DNA of 64,000 nucleotides from an uncultured Bacteroidota bacterium (GTDB taxonomy: Bacteria; Bacteroidota; Bacteroidia; JABEUT01), in NCBI GenBank assembly GCA_903901055.1, contig CAIUPO010000063.1, positions 62,001-126,000 of the forward strand, in the 5' to 3' direction. A program made the position numbers and the translations under genes. Under the pieces are notes generated by a model, which worked only from the letters and a program-made list of their open reading frames with translations, ran no database searches and had not been told where the DNA came from. Below are positions 14,730 through 56,753 of this stretch, in pieces; within the stretch, counting starts at the first letter, position 1, and each line of letters starts with the position of its first letter.

Positions 14730-14750
14730 TTCACATTACCCAGTGAGATT

Positions 14751-14777
14751 GTCATCCTGAGTGAAGCGAGGGATCTC
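14751..14777. repeat. Dispersed repeat-like GTCATCCTGAGTGAAGCGAGGGATCTC
   Basis: Resembles a short repeat common in bacterial intergenic DNA (recalled, not searched). Confidence 0.6.
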
Positions 14778-14837
14778 TTTTAACTTACCCTTGCCTATAT
14801 CCATATTTTTCATAAATTTGAATTATAAATTCATTCC

Positions 14838-14966
14838 ATGAATACACTGCTGAAAAATAAAATCCTCGAAATTTTAATAGGAACAGGCAAAGTGATTGCA
14901 GCAATTGTAATTATTATGCTGCTGGGCATTATGTTTTTCTGGCACGGTAATGGGTTCTACAGATAA
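14838..14966 (+). CDS. Putative 42-aa single-TM protein
   Basis: MNTLLKNKILEILIGTGKVIAAIVIIMLLGIMFFWHGNGFYR*; not in the supplied ORF track. Confidence 0.35.
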   Translation: MNTLLKNKILEILIGTGKVIAAIVIIMLLGIMFFWHGNGFYR

Positions 14967-15003
14967 GCGGTTTGAAGGTTATTTCATTACCGGATTGGCC
15001 TTT

Positions 15004-15031
15004 GTAGGGACGATTCACAAATCGTCTCTAC
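15004..15031. repeat. REP-like palindrome GTAGGGACGATTCACAAATCGTCTCTAC (copy 4)
   Basis: Same element as at 4195/7932/7983; adjacent to the end of the MORN-like cluster. Confidence 0.82.
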
Positions 15032-15048
15032 AATATCAACATTGAAAT

Positions 15049-15687
15049 CTATTTGATTTCCTTGCCTTTTTCGTCGTAGTGTATATAACTTTTTGTTTTC
15101 CCACGTTTAAATGTAATCACATCCCTGATTTTCCCATTGGTATACTAAAACTTTTCTACTCCATTTTCTATATCTCTCTTATAAGAGCATTCTCTTTCCA
15201 AAGTGTCTTTTTTATAATACACTCTCTCAATCCCATTTTTTTTTCCATTTACATATGCACACTCACAAATTATTGTTCCATCCTCATTATATTCCTTAAC
15301 AATACCATTCTTTTTCCCATTAATATTTGGAAACTCCTCATGTAAACTTCCATCTGTATAATATATTTTTTCAACCCCATTTTTCTTACCATTTACATAA
15401 GGTGTTTCACAAAATAATTTCCCGCTTTTTCCATAGTATCCTCTGGATATTCCAACCCTCCTTCCTCTGCGATAAATTGCAAGGTTATAGTATTCCTCAC
15501 TTGTATCTGTCGTTTGATAATACATATACCCATCACCATAATAATACTCGATCCACTTGCCTTCTTTACGCCCATGTACCATTTTATTTTCCGCTTCGGC
15601 TTTATTGGTAAATCCTAAACTATCAACTTGGGCAAATGCAGTAATTGCAAAGGACAAGGATAATATGGAAATCAAAAAACACCTCAT
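15049..15687 (-). pseudogene. MORN-repeat/YwqK-like secreted protein interrupted by an in-frame TAG
   Basis: ORF stops at 15145, but the same frame continues YTNGKIRDVITFKRGKTKSYIHYDEKGKEIK* to 15049, matching paralog ends (SYDESGNEIK; EYDELSNKVK). Confidence 0.7.
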
Positions 15688-15690
15688 TTT

Positions 15691-16347
15691 CTATTTGATT
15701 TCATTACCGCTTTCATCATAAGATTTTCCTGATTTAAATACACCATTCTTCAAAATCGTCTGCGACTTAAGTTTGCCATTCTCATAATATTCTTTCAGAA
15801 TTATCTTCTTTCTATATTTACCATACTCCGTAACAATCATCACTTTTCCCGATTTATAAAACATCGTGTCAACCTCATTCCAAGTGCCCTTTACATATCC
15901 TCTTACCTCATTGAGTTCACCGGTAAAATAATATCGTTTCAGAATCCCGTTTTCCTTATCTTGCTGATAGGGTATCTGAACGCGAAGCATTACCTTATCA
16001 GGCTTTCCTCCAATAAAATATTCTTTATATATCCCAGATATAACTCCGTTAATATATGGAGTTTCCCTCCAAAGTTTACCGGTATTAATATTATAATCCC
16101 TCACTATTCCTACAGGTATACCATGCCTATAGATGGCTAATCTATAATAACGAACCTCAAGAACTAATCCATCATCTAAAGGAGAATCATACCCTGAATC
16201 TATACCCTCGCACCATTTCCCTTCCTTCAACCCATTCACCATTTTGTTTTCCGCTTCGGCTTTATTGGTAAAACCTAAACTATCTGCTTGGGCAAATGCA
16301 GCAATGGATAGGGAAAGGGATAATATGAGAATGAGAAAAAATTTCAT
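15691..16347 (-). CDS. MORN-repeat/YwqK-like secreted protein
   Basis: Signal peptide; repeated GxxWRETPYINGVxxGIYKEYF units. Confidence 0.7.
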   Translation of the reverse strand: MKFFLILILSLSLSIAAFAQADSLGFTNKAEAENKMVNGLKEGKWCEGIDSGYDSPLDDGLVLEVRYYRLAIYRHGIPVGIVRDYNINTGKLWRETPYINGVISGIYKEYFIGGKPDKVMLRVQIPYQQDKENGILKRYYFTGELNEVRGYVKGTWNEVDTMFYKSGKVMIVTEYGKYRKKIILKEYYENGKLKSQTILKNGVFKSGKSYDESGNEIK

Positions 16348-16349
16348 CT

Positions 16350-16691
16350 TTATTTATTTTTCTTTTCGTCTTTCTCGGGTAAAATACACAAATAATAAAT
16401 AAACTTTTCATCAGACATTGTAAATGATACGTAAGCGAATGTTGCACCGCACGATGCTGTCATTTTCTTAATCCTCTTTATTTCTCGTTTATTAAGGTCT
16501 TTTAATGAATGTACATTTTGCCGCCTGTTTATCTCGCCTTCCCCATTTGCACCAGCCATAAAGTAGAGCGAGTCGCATTGCATTACAGTTACGTCCTGCC
16601 AATTGACTTTATTGGATAAGCAACTATCATTCTGCCCAAACCCGACAACAGAGTGAGCGAACAACGCTATCATTATCAAAAAATATTTCAT
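16350..16691 (-). CDS. Small secreted protein of unknown function inside the MORN-like operon
   Basis: Signal peptide MKYFLIMIALFAHSVVGFGQ; 2-3 bp from both neighbours. Confidence 0.55.
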   Translation of the reverse strand: MKYFLIMIALFAHSVVGFGQNDSCLSNKVNWQDVTVMQCDSLYFMAGANGEGEINRRQNVHSLKDLNKREIKRIKKMTASCGATFAYVSFTMSDEKFIYYLCILPEKDEKKNK

Positions 16692-16694
16692 CTC

Positions 16695-17459
16695 TTATTT
16701 AACTTTATTGCTTAGCTCATCATATTCCTTTGTCGAATCGAGAACCCCGTATGTATAATATTTTATCGCTTTCAATTTTCCATTTTCAAAATAACAGTTG
16801 GTGATACCGCTTCTTTTATCATTCCTGAAATTCGATTCCTCATTTATTGCACCGTTCTCATAATAACATTTCACTATTCCCGAGGTTACATCATTTATAT
16901 AGGGGTCTTCCTCTTTTAATTTCCCATTCTCATAATACCATTTCAGCATACCAACCCGCTTACCTTTCACATAAGGCGCTTCGTCTTTAATATTTCCATT
17001 TTTGTAATACCCTTTAGCCAACCCATTCCGTTTTCCGAATGTATATGGAATTTCATTCTTTATCGCTCCGCCACTATCATAATATACTTTCACAATACCT
17101 TCTATCCGGCCATTCTTGTGAGGGGCCTCTTCTTTCAAACTTCCGCTTTCGTAATACCATTTTACCAGCCCGTTTATATGCTCATATTTATACGGAATTT
17201 CACCATACAATTTCCCGTCTTTATAATACTGATGTGCCATTCCTACAATTGATCCCATTTGATATGTTTTCAACGAATAATAAGCTGCGTTCGTATCTGA
17301 AGTAACTTCATGAGTTGAATCAATATACTCTATCCACTTTCCAATTTTAAACCAAAGGAAGTGCCTGTTTTTAGCTTCTGCTTTATGGGTGAAACCATTA
17401 TCCGGTGTATTATTGCAGGCACATAAAACGACTACAATCAGAATCAAAAAATATTTCAT
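16695..17459 (-). CDS. MORN-repeat/YwqK-like lipoprotein
   Basis: Lipobox-like VVLCAC; about seven YYENGxLKEExPYxNGxxxGIVK units. Confidence 0.75.
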   Translation of the reverse strand: MKYFLILIVVVLCACNNTPDNGFTHKAEAKNRHFLWFKIGKWIEYIDSTHEVTSDTNAAYYSLKTYQMGSIVGMAHQYYKDGKLYGEIPYKYEHINGLVKWYYESGSLKEEAPHKNGRIEGIVKVYYDSGGAIKNEIPYTFGKRNGLAKGYYKNGNIKDEAPYVKGKRVGMLKWYYENGKLKEEDPYINDVTSGIVKCYYENGAINEESNFRNDKRSGITNCYFENGKLKAIKYYTYGVLDSTKEYDELSNKVK

Positions 17460-17488
17460 GCGTTATTTGATTTCATTAAACCTTGCCA

Positions 17489-18538
17489 TTAATTTTTATT
17501 CTCCTTCCAAAACTGCCCTAGCGGCATATCCCATAAAAAATCGCAAACCTTTTCAAAAGGTGTTATGTCCCAATCATCGTATGTCCTTAGTTTTTTTACT
17601 TTACCATTATCGTAGGTAATAGTTACATAAGTATAGAGAGAATAATCTACACCTTTTATATCCGAATCTTTCCGGTTCGCAAAATCAGAATAGTTAAGCA
17701 TTCCTGTGAGGTAGGCATACTTAACCGAATCAACCGTTGAATAATAAGTTCCCCTCAATTTATATATAAAGTTCATTTTACAGCGCCTACCTTCCTGTAT
17801 ATCATCCCAGTATTCACCGTCCCAATTATAGAAGACTGCCTTTCGGTCTGAGGTAATACTAACGGAAAATCGAGGATAATCCCCGCCCACAGAGTTGGGA
17901 GGAACCGGTATTGTATACTCTATCTTTTCTATTTCATGCGGTTTGCATTGGAGACAACAGGAAGAATACTTGATAAAAACCCCGAACTTAGTTATCATTG
18001 AATCTTTACATACTATTTTCCACTTGTCCATTTTATCCATCCAGTGGGAATTATTCTGATAAATTATAACCACGGCCACATTTCCAATCTTTACAACCTT
18101 GGTAAGTGAAACAAAGCCCAATGTCCCTTCTACAGCGGTCAATTCTTTCGTACCGATTCTATTACAACTATCCATAAATGCATACAGAATTGGTGCCTCA
18201 TCATCTCTTGCTCCTAAAGGATAAGCGTAAACCAATAAGCCTGTATGCCCGTTATTTTCAAAGTCAACTTTTTGCCAAATTTTTAAATTCAATGAATCTA
18301 CCGTTTTATTAAACAAAACAAATCCCGAATCACTCAAGCCTTCTTGTTGGGCAATTTTTTTCAATGATAGAACCCTGAATTCCTTGTCTACCCCATGCTT
18401 ATGAATGAATTTCTCAACATCTCTATCTGATTTTAAATCATCAATTGCGTTATGCAAGGCTTGCCCGGTTGCTATGATATTCAGGGATAGCGATAATATA
18501 AAAAGGAGAAAATATTTCACATTTTTCATCTTATACAA
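17489..18538 (-). CDS. Secreted protein with DUF6438-like C-terminal region
   Basis: PRFSVSITSDRKAVFYNWDGEY...LRGTYYSTVDSVKYAYLTGMLNYSDFANRKDSD...VTITYDNGKVKKLRTYDDW resembles DUF6438. Confidence 0.5.
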   Translation of the reverse strand: MYKMKNVKYFLLFILSLSLNIIATGQALHNAIDDLKSDRDVEKFIHKHGVDKEFRVLSLKKIAQQEGLSDSGFVLFNKTVDSLNLKIWQKVDFENNGHTGLLVYAYPLGARDDEAPILYAFMDSCNRIGTKELTAVEGTLGFVSLTKVVKIGNVAVVIIYQNNSHWMDKMDKWKIVCKDSMITKFGVFIKYSSCCLQCKPHEIEKIEYTIPVPPNSVGGDYPRFSVSITSDRKAVFYNWDGEYWDDIQEGRRCKMNFIYKLRGTYYSTVDSVKYAYLTGMLNYSDFANRKDSDIKGVDYSLYTYVTITYDNGKVKKLRTYDDWDITPFEKVCDFLWDMPLGQFWKENKN

Positions 18539-18587
18539 ATATAAATAAAATCATAATTGCCTCACCACCAATCAGTGTTTATAACAA

Positions 18588-18835
18588 GTCATTGACTTTT
18601 TAAAGAAACAATTTCTGATGATTTAATTTTGCTTTATGAAACATTGCAAATCCATATTTTCATCAAACCTGATAAACAAAATTAAAAATCACTTTTCCTG
18701 TTCCGGCCTGTTAATAACAGGAATCATAATTAACATACTATTGAATTACAGAATGTTAACAAAATTTGATTTTCCTGTTATTTCAGTTATTCTCCCTGTT
18801 ACTTCCCTGTTATGGCTCCTGTTATCTTCCTGTTA
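18588..18835 (+). promoter_or_regulatory. Element A: GTCATTGACTTTT, TAATTTTG motif, palindrome CCTGTTA-A-TAACAGG (18707-18721), 11-bp-periodic CCTGTTA array
   Basis: CCTGTTA at 18707, 18774, 18795, 18806, 18818, 18829; degenerate CAGTTAT near 18784; CCTGTTCC at 18697; TAATTTTG 18624-18631. Confidence 0.8.
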
Positions 18836-18873
18836 TTTATATACATTTTTTAAACCATTTTAACTATTTTATT

Positions 18874-19200
18874 ATGAAATACCAAAAAGGACAAAGCGGC
18901 AATCCTGATGGCCGGCCAAAAGGAACTTACACAAAAGTCAGTTCCAAACAACGAGAGTTTTTACGCGAATTTATTCTCGATAACAAAGAAAAATTCGAAA
19001 CCGAAATCGGAAAATTAGAGGGTAAAGAGTTCCTCCAATTATATCTTTCCCTAATGCAGTACATCCTTCCAAAACCGGCTACAGCCGAGCTTAAGGAAGT
19101 CCCGAAATTGGAGGAATTTATTGCCATGACACCTGAAGAAAGACAGATAGCCATGGAAGAAATAAGGGAATCTATAAATAAAGAAAAAGCCAAACTATGA
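18874..19200 (+). CDS. Small GQSGNPxGRPKG protein (DUF5681-like, putative DNA-binding)
   Basis: MKYQKGQSGNPDGRPKGTYTKVSSKQREFLREFILDNKEKFE; AT-hook-like GRPKG. Start trimmed to the ATG after the array (ORF opens at 18766). Confidence 0.65.
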   Translation: MKYQKGQSGNPDGRPKGTYTKVSSKQREFLREFILDNKEKFETEIGKLEGKEFLQLYLSLMQYILPKPATAELKEVPKLEEFIAMTPEERQIAMEEIRESINKEKAKL

Positions 19201-19538
19201 GAAATGCAGTGAAAAAACGAATGCGGAAATTGGATGAAGAACGCAGGAAAAAGCAAGTGGAGAAGATTGACAATATGCAAGAGACGGAAAATGTTTTGGG
19301 AATGGTTGGCACCGAATTTATAACCAAATATCCTGAAGGCAGTTATATCACATTTACAAGTGACCGGAAAAAGGGTGAAGAAATCACCCAGGTATCCTGT
19401 GCATGGTATGATAAAGAGGGAACCAAGAAAAATTTTGTAAGCAACCCGCCCGAATGGCAAAACATTACCCAGGAAGAGGCCGAAAAAATTGCCAAAAAAT
19501 TCGACCAGTCTATGTTTCTAGGGATGGTATATGTTTAG
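19197..19538 (+). CDS. Unknown protein, translationally coupled to the GRPKG gene
   Basis: ATGA overlap with the upstream stop; basic N-terminus MRNAVKKRMRKLDEERRKKQVEK. Confidence 0.65.
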   Translation: MRNAVKKRMRKLDEERRKKQVEKIDNMQETENVLGMVGTEFITKYPEGSYITFTSDRKKGEEITQVSCAWYDKEGTKKNFVSNPPEWQNITQEEAEKIAKKFDQSMFLGMVYV

Positions 19539-19565
19539 AATAATTAGCAATTCTCCAATCAATTA

Positions 19566-54850: not shown

Positions 54851-54998
54851 TTACGAATTAGGAATTACGAATTCCAAAAATAAGTAACCTAGCTATGAGA
54901 TATAAGCTATCAGATATAAGCTATGAACATTGGGATGTTAAATTATACAATTATGAATCAGAAATTGGTGGCGATTTAGCAGGGAAAAAGGGGCAAAA

Positions 54999-55252
54999 TA
55001 ACAACGAAAATAACAATGAACTAACAACGGATAACAACGCAAATAACAACGAATTATCAATGCAATAACAATTAGGGTGAAAAAATAGAATATTGATTAT
55101 CTGATATTTACATGAATATTCGTTGTTAATAACAACGATTAACAATAAAAAAACGAGCACAATTATCCCAACTTTTACTTGCCGGAATGTTGTTTTGTTT
55201 TTCATAAAGTAAAGATACTACATGAAAAAGTATTTTTATAAAAGTCATTGAC
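54999..55252 (-). promoter_or_regulatory. Element B: GTCAATGACTTTT, TATCTTTA motif, palindrome CGTTGTTA-A-TAACAACG (55121-55137), 11-bp-periodic half-site array
   Basis: TAACAACG-type units (plus strand) at 54999, 55011, 55022, 55032, 55044, 55055, 55066; same order and spacing as element A. Confidence 0.8.
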
Positions 55253-55430
55253 CTGTCGGATGCCCGACTTGCAATTATTTATGAACAGTGGTATTTGACA
55301 GTGAAAAACTAAATCCATTTTACCACTAAGGACACAAAGAAAATACACACTAAGTTTCTCAAAGGTGAGAGTGCTTTTTCAAAATAACAATGATAACAAT
55401 GAAAAAAAGACACTAATTAGTGGGACCGAA

Positions 55431-56753
55431 TTAGTGGCTAATAATGCCTTTTATATAAGAGGAGTTTAGCCAATAACACATTTTCTTTTCCATTGTACCA
55501 GCAGGCGTCTCCATTAAATCCCTACTATTAATACCTTTAGGCCTAACATGGCAAATCATGTTATCCGAAATCTTAATAAAGTGCTTAAAATCATTCTTAG
55601 CAATCTTTTTCTTAGTATCAACCCAATATTTATGTGCAACCTCAAGATCTTTGACTGGCATTGTCCAGAACATGACTTTTTTCAATCTAGCTTGTCTTTT
55701 TGCGTCTTTTTGAAATATCACAAAGAAGAATCTCTTGGTTAGGGTATTTAACCAATATGAATCCTCCCAAGTTTCATTAACTATTTCTTTATATTTAATC
55801 TGTGCAAAAGACATGCTTTCTTTTAAAGCATCAGAATATTCAATACGGATTGTTTTCATTTCTATTTCAGCCTTCTCGAATTCTTCAATTTTCTCCTTCT
55901 TAATACCCAATATTGCTTTTGCTATCAAATAAAACCTGCTTTTCGAAACTGATTTAGGTAATTTTAGTTTTTTAATAATCTCACTCTCTGACATACCATA
56001 ATATGGAGCAAAACGCTTTTGAACTAACTCTTCAAATGATTCATCCGTTTTGTATTCTTTTAAATCTTTTACTATTGGTTCCGCCGGAAGACTTTTTCTA
56101 ATAATGAAATTAAGATATTTCGACTTTAATGAGAATGCTCTCTGCATTGCCAATTCTGAAGAAAATGGCTGTTTTCTTAAAGACGATTTATTTGCACCTT
56201 TGGTACATGCACCTAAATATAGCGTATCCCCTTCTGATATTTCATGTGCTTTGCCAGCCTTTATTTTTGTTATTATTTTCACCCAATCATCTTCAATAAT
56301 TTTCAGGTCAGTAGATGGGAACTCCCAAAGCTTAATAATCTTAAAAATAAAATCCAAATCTTCGATGCCCTGTTGATGCAAAAAGAACATCAGCAACAAT
56401 AGTTTATTCTTTATCCAAAAACTACTTGTTTTAAACGTTTTACTATATTCTTCCTCATAATTAATGATATTAAATACAAGTCTTTCCTTTGAGGTTAGAC
56501 CTTTTGTTGTCCTTTTTAAAGGGCTGGTCTTTAATTCTACTCCTGCTTCTACAAAGTCAGGTCCAGATCCAGAATTTGGCTTATACTGAAAATAAAGGTC
56601 CTCAAGAGCCTGCCCTAGTTTACCTTTGCCAAAATATGTCTGTTTGATATGTGAACCTAGTACTTCTCTAATAGATTTATTAAGAAGCCTCTTAGCATAT
56701 GATTCTATTGATTTTGAATCTTTCTTATTGTAAGGTAAATTAAGTTCTGCCAT
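55431..56753 (-). CDS. Sau3AI/MutH-family type II restriction endonuclease
   Basis: SIREVLGSHIKQTYFGKGKLGQALEDLYFQYKPNSGSGPDFVEAGVELKTSPLK (D...ExK core); adjacent to a C5 methyltransferase. Confidence 0.82.
   Translation of the reverse strand: MAELNLPYNKKDSKSIESYAKRLLNKSIREVLGSHIKQTYFGKGKLGQALEDLYFQYKPNSGSGPDFVEAGVELKTSPLKRTTKGLTSKERLVFNIINYEEEYSKTFKTSSFWIKNKLLLLMFFLHQQGIEDLDFIFKIIKLWEFPSTDLKIIEDDWVKIITKIKAGKAHEISEGDTLYLGACTKGANKSSLRKQPFSSELAMQRAFSLKSKYLNFIIRKSLPAEPIVKDLKEYKTDESFEELVQKRFAPYYGMSESEIIKKLKLPKSVSKSRFYLIAKAILGIKKEKIEEFEKAEIEMKTIRIEYSDALKESMSFAQIKYKEIVNETWEDSYWLNTLTKRFFFVIFQKDAKRQARLKKVMFWTMPVKDLEVAHKYWVDTKKKIAKNDFKHFIKISDNMICHVRPKGINSRDLMETPAGTMEKKMCYWLNSSYIKGIISH

Follow-up and report, generated by a model that had tools for sequence, protein, structure and literature searches.

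What does a perfect palindrome followed by an array of direct repeats do in the leader of a small gene? This question is raised by Element A (18588-18863, + strand), which lies in the window, i.e., the whole 64-kb stretch of DNA analysed here, and which combines a phage-type promoter module, a 75-aa reading frame, a 7+1+7 palindrome and an array with a period of ~11 bp. An initial annotation had read this array as a nucleation-and-spreading binding site within an untranslated leader, perhaps for the DUF5681-like protein (GRPKG protein) encoded just downstream. We studied the element in the window, in the window's own genome (G000; 3.8 Mb in 146 contigs, about 94% complete) and in congeners (G002, G006, G008 and others).

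Anatomy of Element A and of a second copy in the window

A direct sequence check of the window finds all motifs named for Element A in the initial annotation (palindrome, half-site, CCTGTTA copies, promoter boxes, ATG at 18874) exactly where they had been placed. The phage-type promoter module covers 44 bp (18588-18631, + strand), as judged from its genome copies, its sharing with phage operons and the information content of its columns. It starts with box 1 (GTCATTGAC, 18588-18596, +) and ends with the -7 box (TAATTTTG, TAnnTTTG-type, 18624-18631, +). Just before the promoter lies the motif CAATCAGTGTTTATAAC (18569-18585, +), and similar motifs precede the promoter at loci L020, L022, L053, L054, L061 and L163, i.e., at GRPKG and HTH cassettes.

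The leader reading frame (75 aa, 18636-18863, +) starts with an ATG 5 nt past the -7 box, stops 10 nt before the GRPKG start codon and spans both palindrome and array. The leader had been regarded as an untranslated transcript, which is wrong given these 75 codons and the family-wide stop depletion in the same frame (see below). A partial half-site CCTGTTCC starts at 18697, followed by the strandless palindrome CCTGTTA-A-TAACAGG (18707-18721), whose right arm reads as an array unit in reverse complement. The array itself (18774-18835, +) provides CCTGTTA units at 18774, 18795, 18806, 18818 and 18829, while a degenerate CAGTTAT fills the gap. The 64-kb window contains 18 CCTGTTA copies in total, compared to a mean of 7.9 in shuffled sequence (18 reached by 1/100 shuffles), and 7/18 are packed within 129 bp.

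The GRPKG gene (18874-19200, +) encodes 108 aa and shows a DUF5681 (PF18932) N-terminus; the respective Pfam match (E=3.6e-7, 31.1 bits) is above the curated cut-off of 27.5. It is followed by a second cassette gene (113 aa, 19197-19538, +) and an agmatinase-like ORF. The 113-aa protein recurs in 2 further cassettes of G000 and in 1 of a congener, and nothing credible was found for it in a PHROG/Pfam scan. In G006, the region corresponding to ~14730-19560 of the window is missing, and the agmatinase gene is located directly 3' of the orthologs of the 13993-14729 genes.

Element A is not unique. A second, solitary and gene-less copy is found on the minus strand of the same window (Element B, 54951-55252), recognised by sequence, ORF and word class. 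Here, the promoter (55252-55209) is followed by an ATG at 55205, which opens an 84-aa ORF (54951-55205) covering the palindrome CGTTGTTA-T-TAACAACG (55137-55121) and a TTGTTA-type array (~55073-54994). Element B sits upstream of an M61-type peptidase gene; it was not found upstream of the orthologous peptidase gene in the congener G002, and the upstream region of Element B is rearranged. A separate dispersed palindromic repeat, i.e., GACACTAATTAGGTCCCACTAATTAGTGTC followed by two CTGTTA-like words, is located at ~55366-55440 (-) of the window. It is also present near L028, L029, L031, L033, L036, L045, L056, L063 and L127, often 80-210 bp upstream of elements.

A dispersed family that shares a promoter with phage operons

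Beyond the initial annotation, the genome-wide view reveals dispersed and mostly gene-less copies, a promoter that is common to phage structural operons, and a repeat word that varies by copy. The 286-bp query of Element A has 71 matching stretches in its own genome, distributed over roughly 40 places. The promoter pattern GTCAWTGACTT...TWNNTTTG is found 57 times in G000 (0 in its reversed control) as well as 41, 13 and 10 times in G002, G006 and G008, respectively, while outside the genus only scattered matches with irregular spacing are observed. Family units are about 265-300 bp long, and most promoter copies in G000 and G002 carry palindrome and array. At least 3 exact 6-mers in ~11-bp register follow 76/116 promoter copies (G000 and congeners) compared to 7/386 control stretches from the same flanks. 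The pattern TGTTA-N4-6-CTGTTA-N4-6-CTGTTA yields 34 matches in G000, 30 in one congener, 1 in another and 0 in reversed controls. In the limited collections that were searched, members of the family were confined to the genus.

With regard to their genomic context, the orientation of gene-less copies is independent of the strand of the neighbouring gene (17 -/-, 14 +/+, 10 -/+ and 9 +/-), which rules out that they are leaders of neighbouring host genes. Alignments of recent paralogs start at the first base of GTCA and end shortly after the array, and the sequences on either side are unrelated; identities are 87.5% over 264 bp for L018/L026 and 90.5% over 274 bp for L036/L043. The L049 copy is missing from the same intergenic gap in two congeners (G002 and G006), where the empty sites are too diverged for reading junctions or a target duplication. 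Other copies are common to G000 and G002 at orthologous loci, as recognised by their flanks. At some of these (L036/L043), the body is nearer to a paralog from the same genome than to the ortholog, which suggests replacement or conversion. Copies may have spread via transposition; no transposase, movement enzyme, terminal inverted repeat or target duplication was found for the family units. L041 is a tandem pair of palindrome-array blocks with different words (ATTGTAA, then ATTATTA). Another dispersed palindrome, GCCAGTCGGGCTCCGACT, occurs at L220, L225, L021 and L046, and a variant replaces the GTCATTGAC box in L220 and L225.

Some promoter copies lack the array and stand before other genes. 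The same 44-bp module opens phage structural operons (head-maturation protease, tail sheath), and we therefore consider the promoter to be phage-type. Respective structural clusters are L166 (G008:C30), L165 and L170 (G006:C35), and L025 (G000:C52). The module is also found before a DUF6291 gene and before solo small-terminase-like HTH genes (L053, L061, L067, L136, L144, L153, L169). The latter have no adjoining large-terminase gene where examined, and solo genes behind this promoter match PHROG small terminases weakly. Small hairpins are inserted between -7 box and ATG in L140, L141, L149, L040, L032, L157, L016 and L074; these inserts are of the types CCGCC...AAGGAGG and TTGAAGGAGAACAAGTACCCTTCAAG and can supply a Shine-Dalgarno-like sequence.

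Covariation of palindrome, array and GRPKG protein

The array words observed are CCTGTTA, TTGTTA, ATAGTTA or ATGGTTA, ATTGCTA, ATTATTA and ATTGTA. We scored the class of each palindrome blind to its array and found both classes to be identical in 58/62 copies (10,000 permutations: mean 22, maximum 34). Among the discordant copies, 3/4 are one base step apart (TTGTT palindrome, CTGTT array). Palindrome and array thus change in step from copy to copy, which is unexpected. Adjacent units are spaced by 10-12 bp in 185/224 cases, and the distance from palindrome to first unit clusters at 57.5-58.5 and 67.5-69.5 bp, i.e., one unit apart; the latter cluster may simply consist of copies with a decayed first unit. 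Both the anatomy of the element and the covariation of its words are secure. With regard to spacing, the proposed ~11-bp-phased array that behaves like a protein-binding site is thereby supported.

The word is not bound to one sequence context. CCTGTTA and TTGTTA are each found in two different element bodies, and orthologous loci differ in their word: the ortholog pair of Element A shows CCTGTTA vs. TTGTTA (G000/G002), and L070 shows TTGTTA where its ortholog L137, alignable throughout, has ATAGTTA. Such swaps at orthologous loci together with the recurrence of words across bodies are as expected if trans-acting proteins set the word. We rejected that a companion upstream repeat (GACACTAATT...AGTGTC...CCTGTTA) belongs to the covarying word, as it remains CCTGTTA-like next to the TTGTTA element L056.

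The protein linked to the array belongs to a GRPKG subfamily with 6 paralogs in G000, 4 in G002 and 1 in G008. The initial annotation had asked whether the array is absent upstream of homologous GRPKG genes; within the subfamily it is present upstream of 11/11 genes from these three genomes, while the more distant GRPKG genes of the genus, found in G004, G005 and G009, have other leaders. Among the 12 genus genomes searched, CTGTTA arrays occur only in G000, G002 and G008, i.e., in genomes with this subfamily, and none are present in the other 9. The leader of L081, a distant GRPKG gene from G009, contains inverted and direct AACCT repeats with 6-nt phasing, a possible analogous array.

We also compared the distance between words with the distance between proteins. 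Based on 11 proteins and several segments tried, word distance correlates with the distance of the first 35 residues (Mantel r=0.44, p=0.003), while the remainder of the protein shows no significant correlation. Within these 11 proteins, Tyr3 is found only in the two CCTGTTA proteins, which are non-sister in a weakly supported tree, Pro2 accompanies AT- words and Ser2 accompanies TTGTTA words. That the N-terminus tracks the array word is suggestive, given 11 proteins, several segments and 96 columns with uncorrected single-column p-values. The link to the DUF5681 protein suggested by the initial annotation is thus supported by co-occurrence and by N-terminal covariation with the word, both of which are likewise unexpected. 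No same-class GRPKG gene was found for the ATTGC word in G000 and the ATAGT word in G002, both of which are incomplete MAGs. No HTH is detectable in the GRPKG protein, its AlphaFold model is of low confidence (pLDDT 61), and no solved structure of a GRPKG relative was found.

In Leptospira phage LE4, a DUF5681-like gene extends into the start of the large-terminase gene, and in phage phiPMW such a gene is located three genes upstream of the large-terminase gene. It is possible that the GRPKG protein is a relative of phage small terminases. The shared promoter together with this link of DUF5681 to terminases suggests that the module descends from a phage unit of packaging site and small terminase. 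The subfamily itself was not found in the viral collection, and the phage collection gave weak partial matches only. We rejected a viral origin by direct sequence match, since the viral collection contains neither a GRPKG relative nor a promoter match, and its CTGTTA and CATTGC arrays lack the architecture seen here. Viral contigs L237, L238, L242 and L244 carry unrelated short CTGTTAC direct-repeat arrays.

The leader frame and candidate functions

We scored stops in the frame set by the first ATG close to the -7 box. Within the leader, they account for 0.5% of the codons in this frame, compared to 8.6% and 7.1% in the two alternative frames, and they are depleted in spacer and array as well. 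This depletion is observed in each of four groups (about 0.8-2% vs. 5-8.5% stops per codon), namely gene-less G000 copies, gene-less congener copies, copies with 5' insert and GRPKG leaders. Between copies, mismatches show no preference for any codon position and pN/pS amounts to about 0.8-1.1; moreover, many paralogs are shifted in frame relative to each other. These three observations do not favour a conserved small protein. That is, the frame is kept open without conservation of amino acids, which is unexpected. Therefore, it seems to matter either that the element is translated throughout or that any open hydrophobic peptide is made.

The best supported reading, which we hold tentatively and with slightly less than even confidence, is that palindrome and array form a composite, helix-phased binding site of the cognate GRPKG protein. 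The protein would nucleate on the palindrome and line up along the array. For Element A, this would result in autogenous control by its own GRPKG protein, since only a short gap separates the array from the GRPKG start, and the stop of the leader ORF lies 10 nt ahead of that start; once bound, the protein could block transcription or translationally coupled expression. GRPKG paralogs would read different words, probably via the N-terminal arm and the AT-hook-like GRPKG region, and each solitary copy, having no gene of its own, would depend on the GRPKG protein of its word class, which would bind it in trans. The dispersed units are probably docking sites of a fast-diversifying family of DNA-binding proteins. 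From the original idea of a nucleating array, helix phasing and the DUF5681 link are retained, while the untranslated leader is not. A function as operator only leaves the open, unconserved ORF of the gene-less copies unexplained.

Other readings account for parts of these data. Base pairing rather than a protein might keep the words matched, i.e., the 3' arm of the hairpin (anti-unit) would pair with its own 5' arm or any array unit and form a translation-sensitive attenuator or RNA switch. We consider this quite unlikely: anti-unit and units do covary, the palindromes are compatible with stems that enclose loops of a few nucleotides and the segment is translated as in attenuators, but such pairing needs neither 11-bp phasing nor a fixed palindrome-array distance, and 5-7 matching units are superfluous for one anti-unit. 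Furthermore, there is little folding beyond the hairpin (mean MFE z-score -0.8, only 20% below -2) and no credible Rfam match, such that strong RNA structure in the units finds no support. The stop depletion in all four groups would also be in accordance with a small-protein gene, i.e., a hydrophobic peptide under a phage promoter (holin- or type I toxin-like, perhaps for abortive infection) that is constrained only to an open, membrane-inserting frame and silenced by a repressor at the array. Shine-Dalgarno-like sequences precede the ATG in copies with 5' insert and the product is partly hydrophobic (median maximum 19-residue Kyte-Doolittle value 1.9-2.3); however, hydrophobic codons are to be expected in every frame of the T-rich array, some copies break off at the palindrome, and the codon statistics and frame shifts given above argue against it, which renders this reading rather improbable.

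Replication slippage and quasi-palindrome correction are known mutational processes, which might homogenise the repeats by neutral concerted evolution with no trans-acting reader. The mixed-word intermediates L132, L139, L151 and L159 fit such a process, but units stay identical while linkers vary, one small set of words is shared across different bodies and between the two genomes, N-terminal GRPKG residues follow the word, and promoter, spacing and ORF openness are retained as well; we thus regard it as very unlikely. Finally, the arrays might be pac-like sites of a satellite or packaging system, where GRPKG acts as an orphan small terminase that steers helper-phage packaging to host DNA near arrays. 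The promoter of phage structural operons, its solo small-terminase-like genes, the DUF5681-like genes near large-terminase genes and the similar layout of the SPP1 pac site point in this direction. In contrast, no helper phage with matching arrays was found, the system is absent from the viral collection and packaging alone does not explain sharp-ended insertion, so that we deem this explanation doubtful and improbable on balance.

The composite binding site can be compared to known systems. REPIN/RAYT, for which a long-term co-evolution of repeat and protein was proposed (PMC3116915), similarly shows many short, gene-less intergenic palindrome copies and word classes, each tied to a single-copy gene of a diverged family. 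However, units here are about 265-300 bp long and carry promoter, ORF and a phased direct-repeat array, and the linked protein is DUF5681, with no similarity to the Y1 (HUH) RAYT transposase in Pfam. In the SPP1 pac site, direct repeats extend over promoters and the first part of the small-terminase gene (PMC4737164). Such SPP1/SF6-type units also combine promoter, direct repeats and the start of a gene for a small DNA-binding protein (binding being predicted here) within one short stretch, but our family lacks a large terminase next to it, comprises dozens of mostly gene-less copies on the chromosome, and shows a word that differs per copy and no HTH. REPIN/RAYT is thus nearest for population structure and pac/small terminase for anatomy, and the family belongs to neither.

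Iterons and ParR-type centromeres resemble the family in that direct repeats of ~11 bp face one side of the helix, which suits cooperative binding; here, in contrast, the word varies and a matching palindrome is present. Unlike a ParR-type centromere, the family has dozens of copies with diverse neighbours and no partition or replication genes seen alongside, and unlike plasmid iterons, many chromosomal copies lie among ordinary host genes with no credible initiator match in the cassette. RptR-type operators (PMC12255303) also place a short direct-repeat array just upstream of a gene, with RptR being a small repressor bound to its own, whereas the array here is located downstream of the promoter inside a translated ORF, with 5-7 units, a palindrome and many gene-less copies. 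MITEs are likewise dispersed, short and devoid of genes, have sharp ends and are present or absent at a given site, but the family shows no evident terminal inverted repeats, no target-site duplication was seen (empty sites being too diverged for reading one), and its units have their own promoter and ORF. It is conceivable, though unlikely, that we face an undescribed class of chromosomal elements, i.e., a helix-phased address inside a translated, unconserved frame under a phage promoter that diversifies with the DUF5681 family. Such elements would form several orthogonal pairs per genome plus dozens of gene-less copies and act as minimal phage satellites or packaging addresses.

Within one genome, the family pairs a set of naturally occurring DNA addresses with matching candidate binders, which suits the study of co-evolution between a protein family and its multi-site target. 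It would also assign a testable function to the phage-associated DUF5681 domain, whose function is unknown, and confronts us with the rare puzzle of a reading frame that is held open without sequence conservation.
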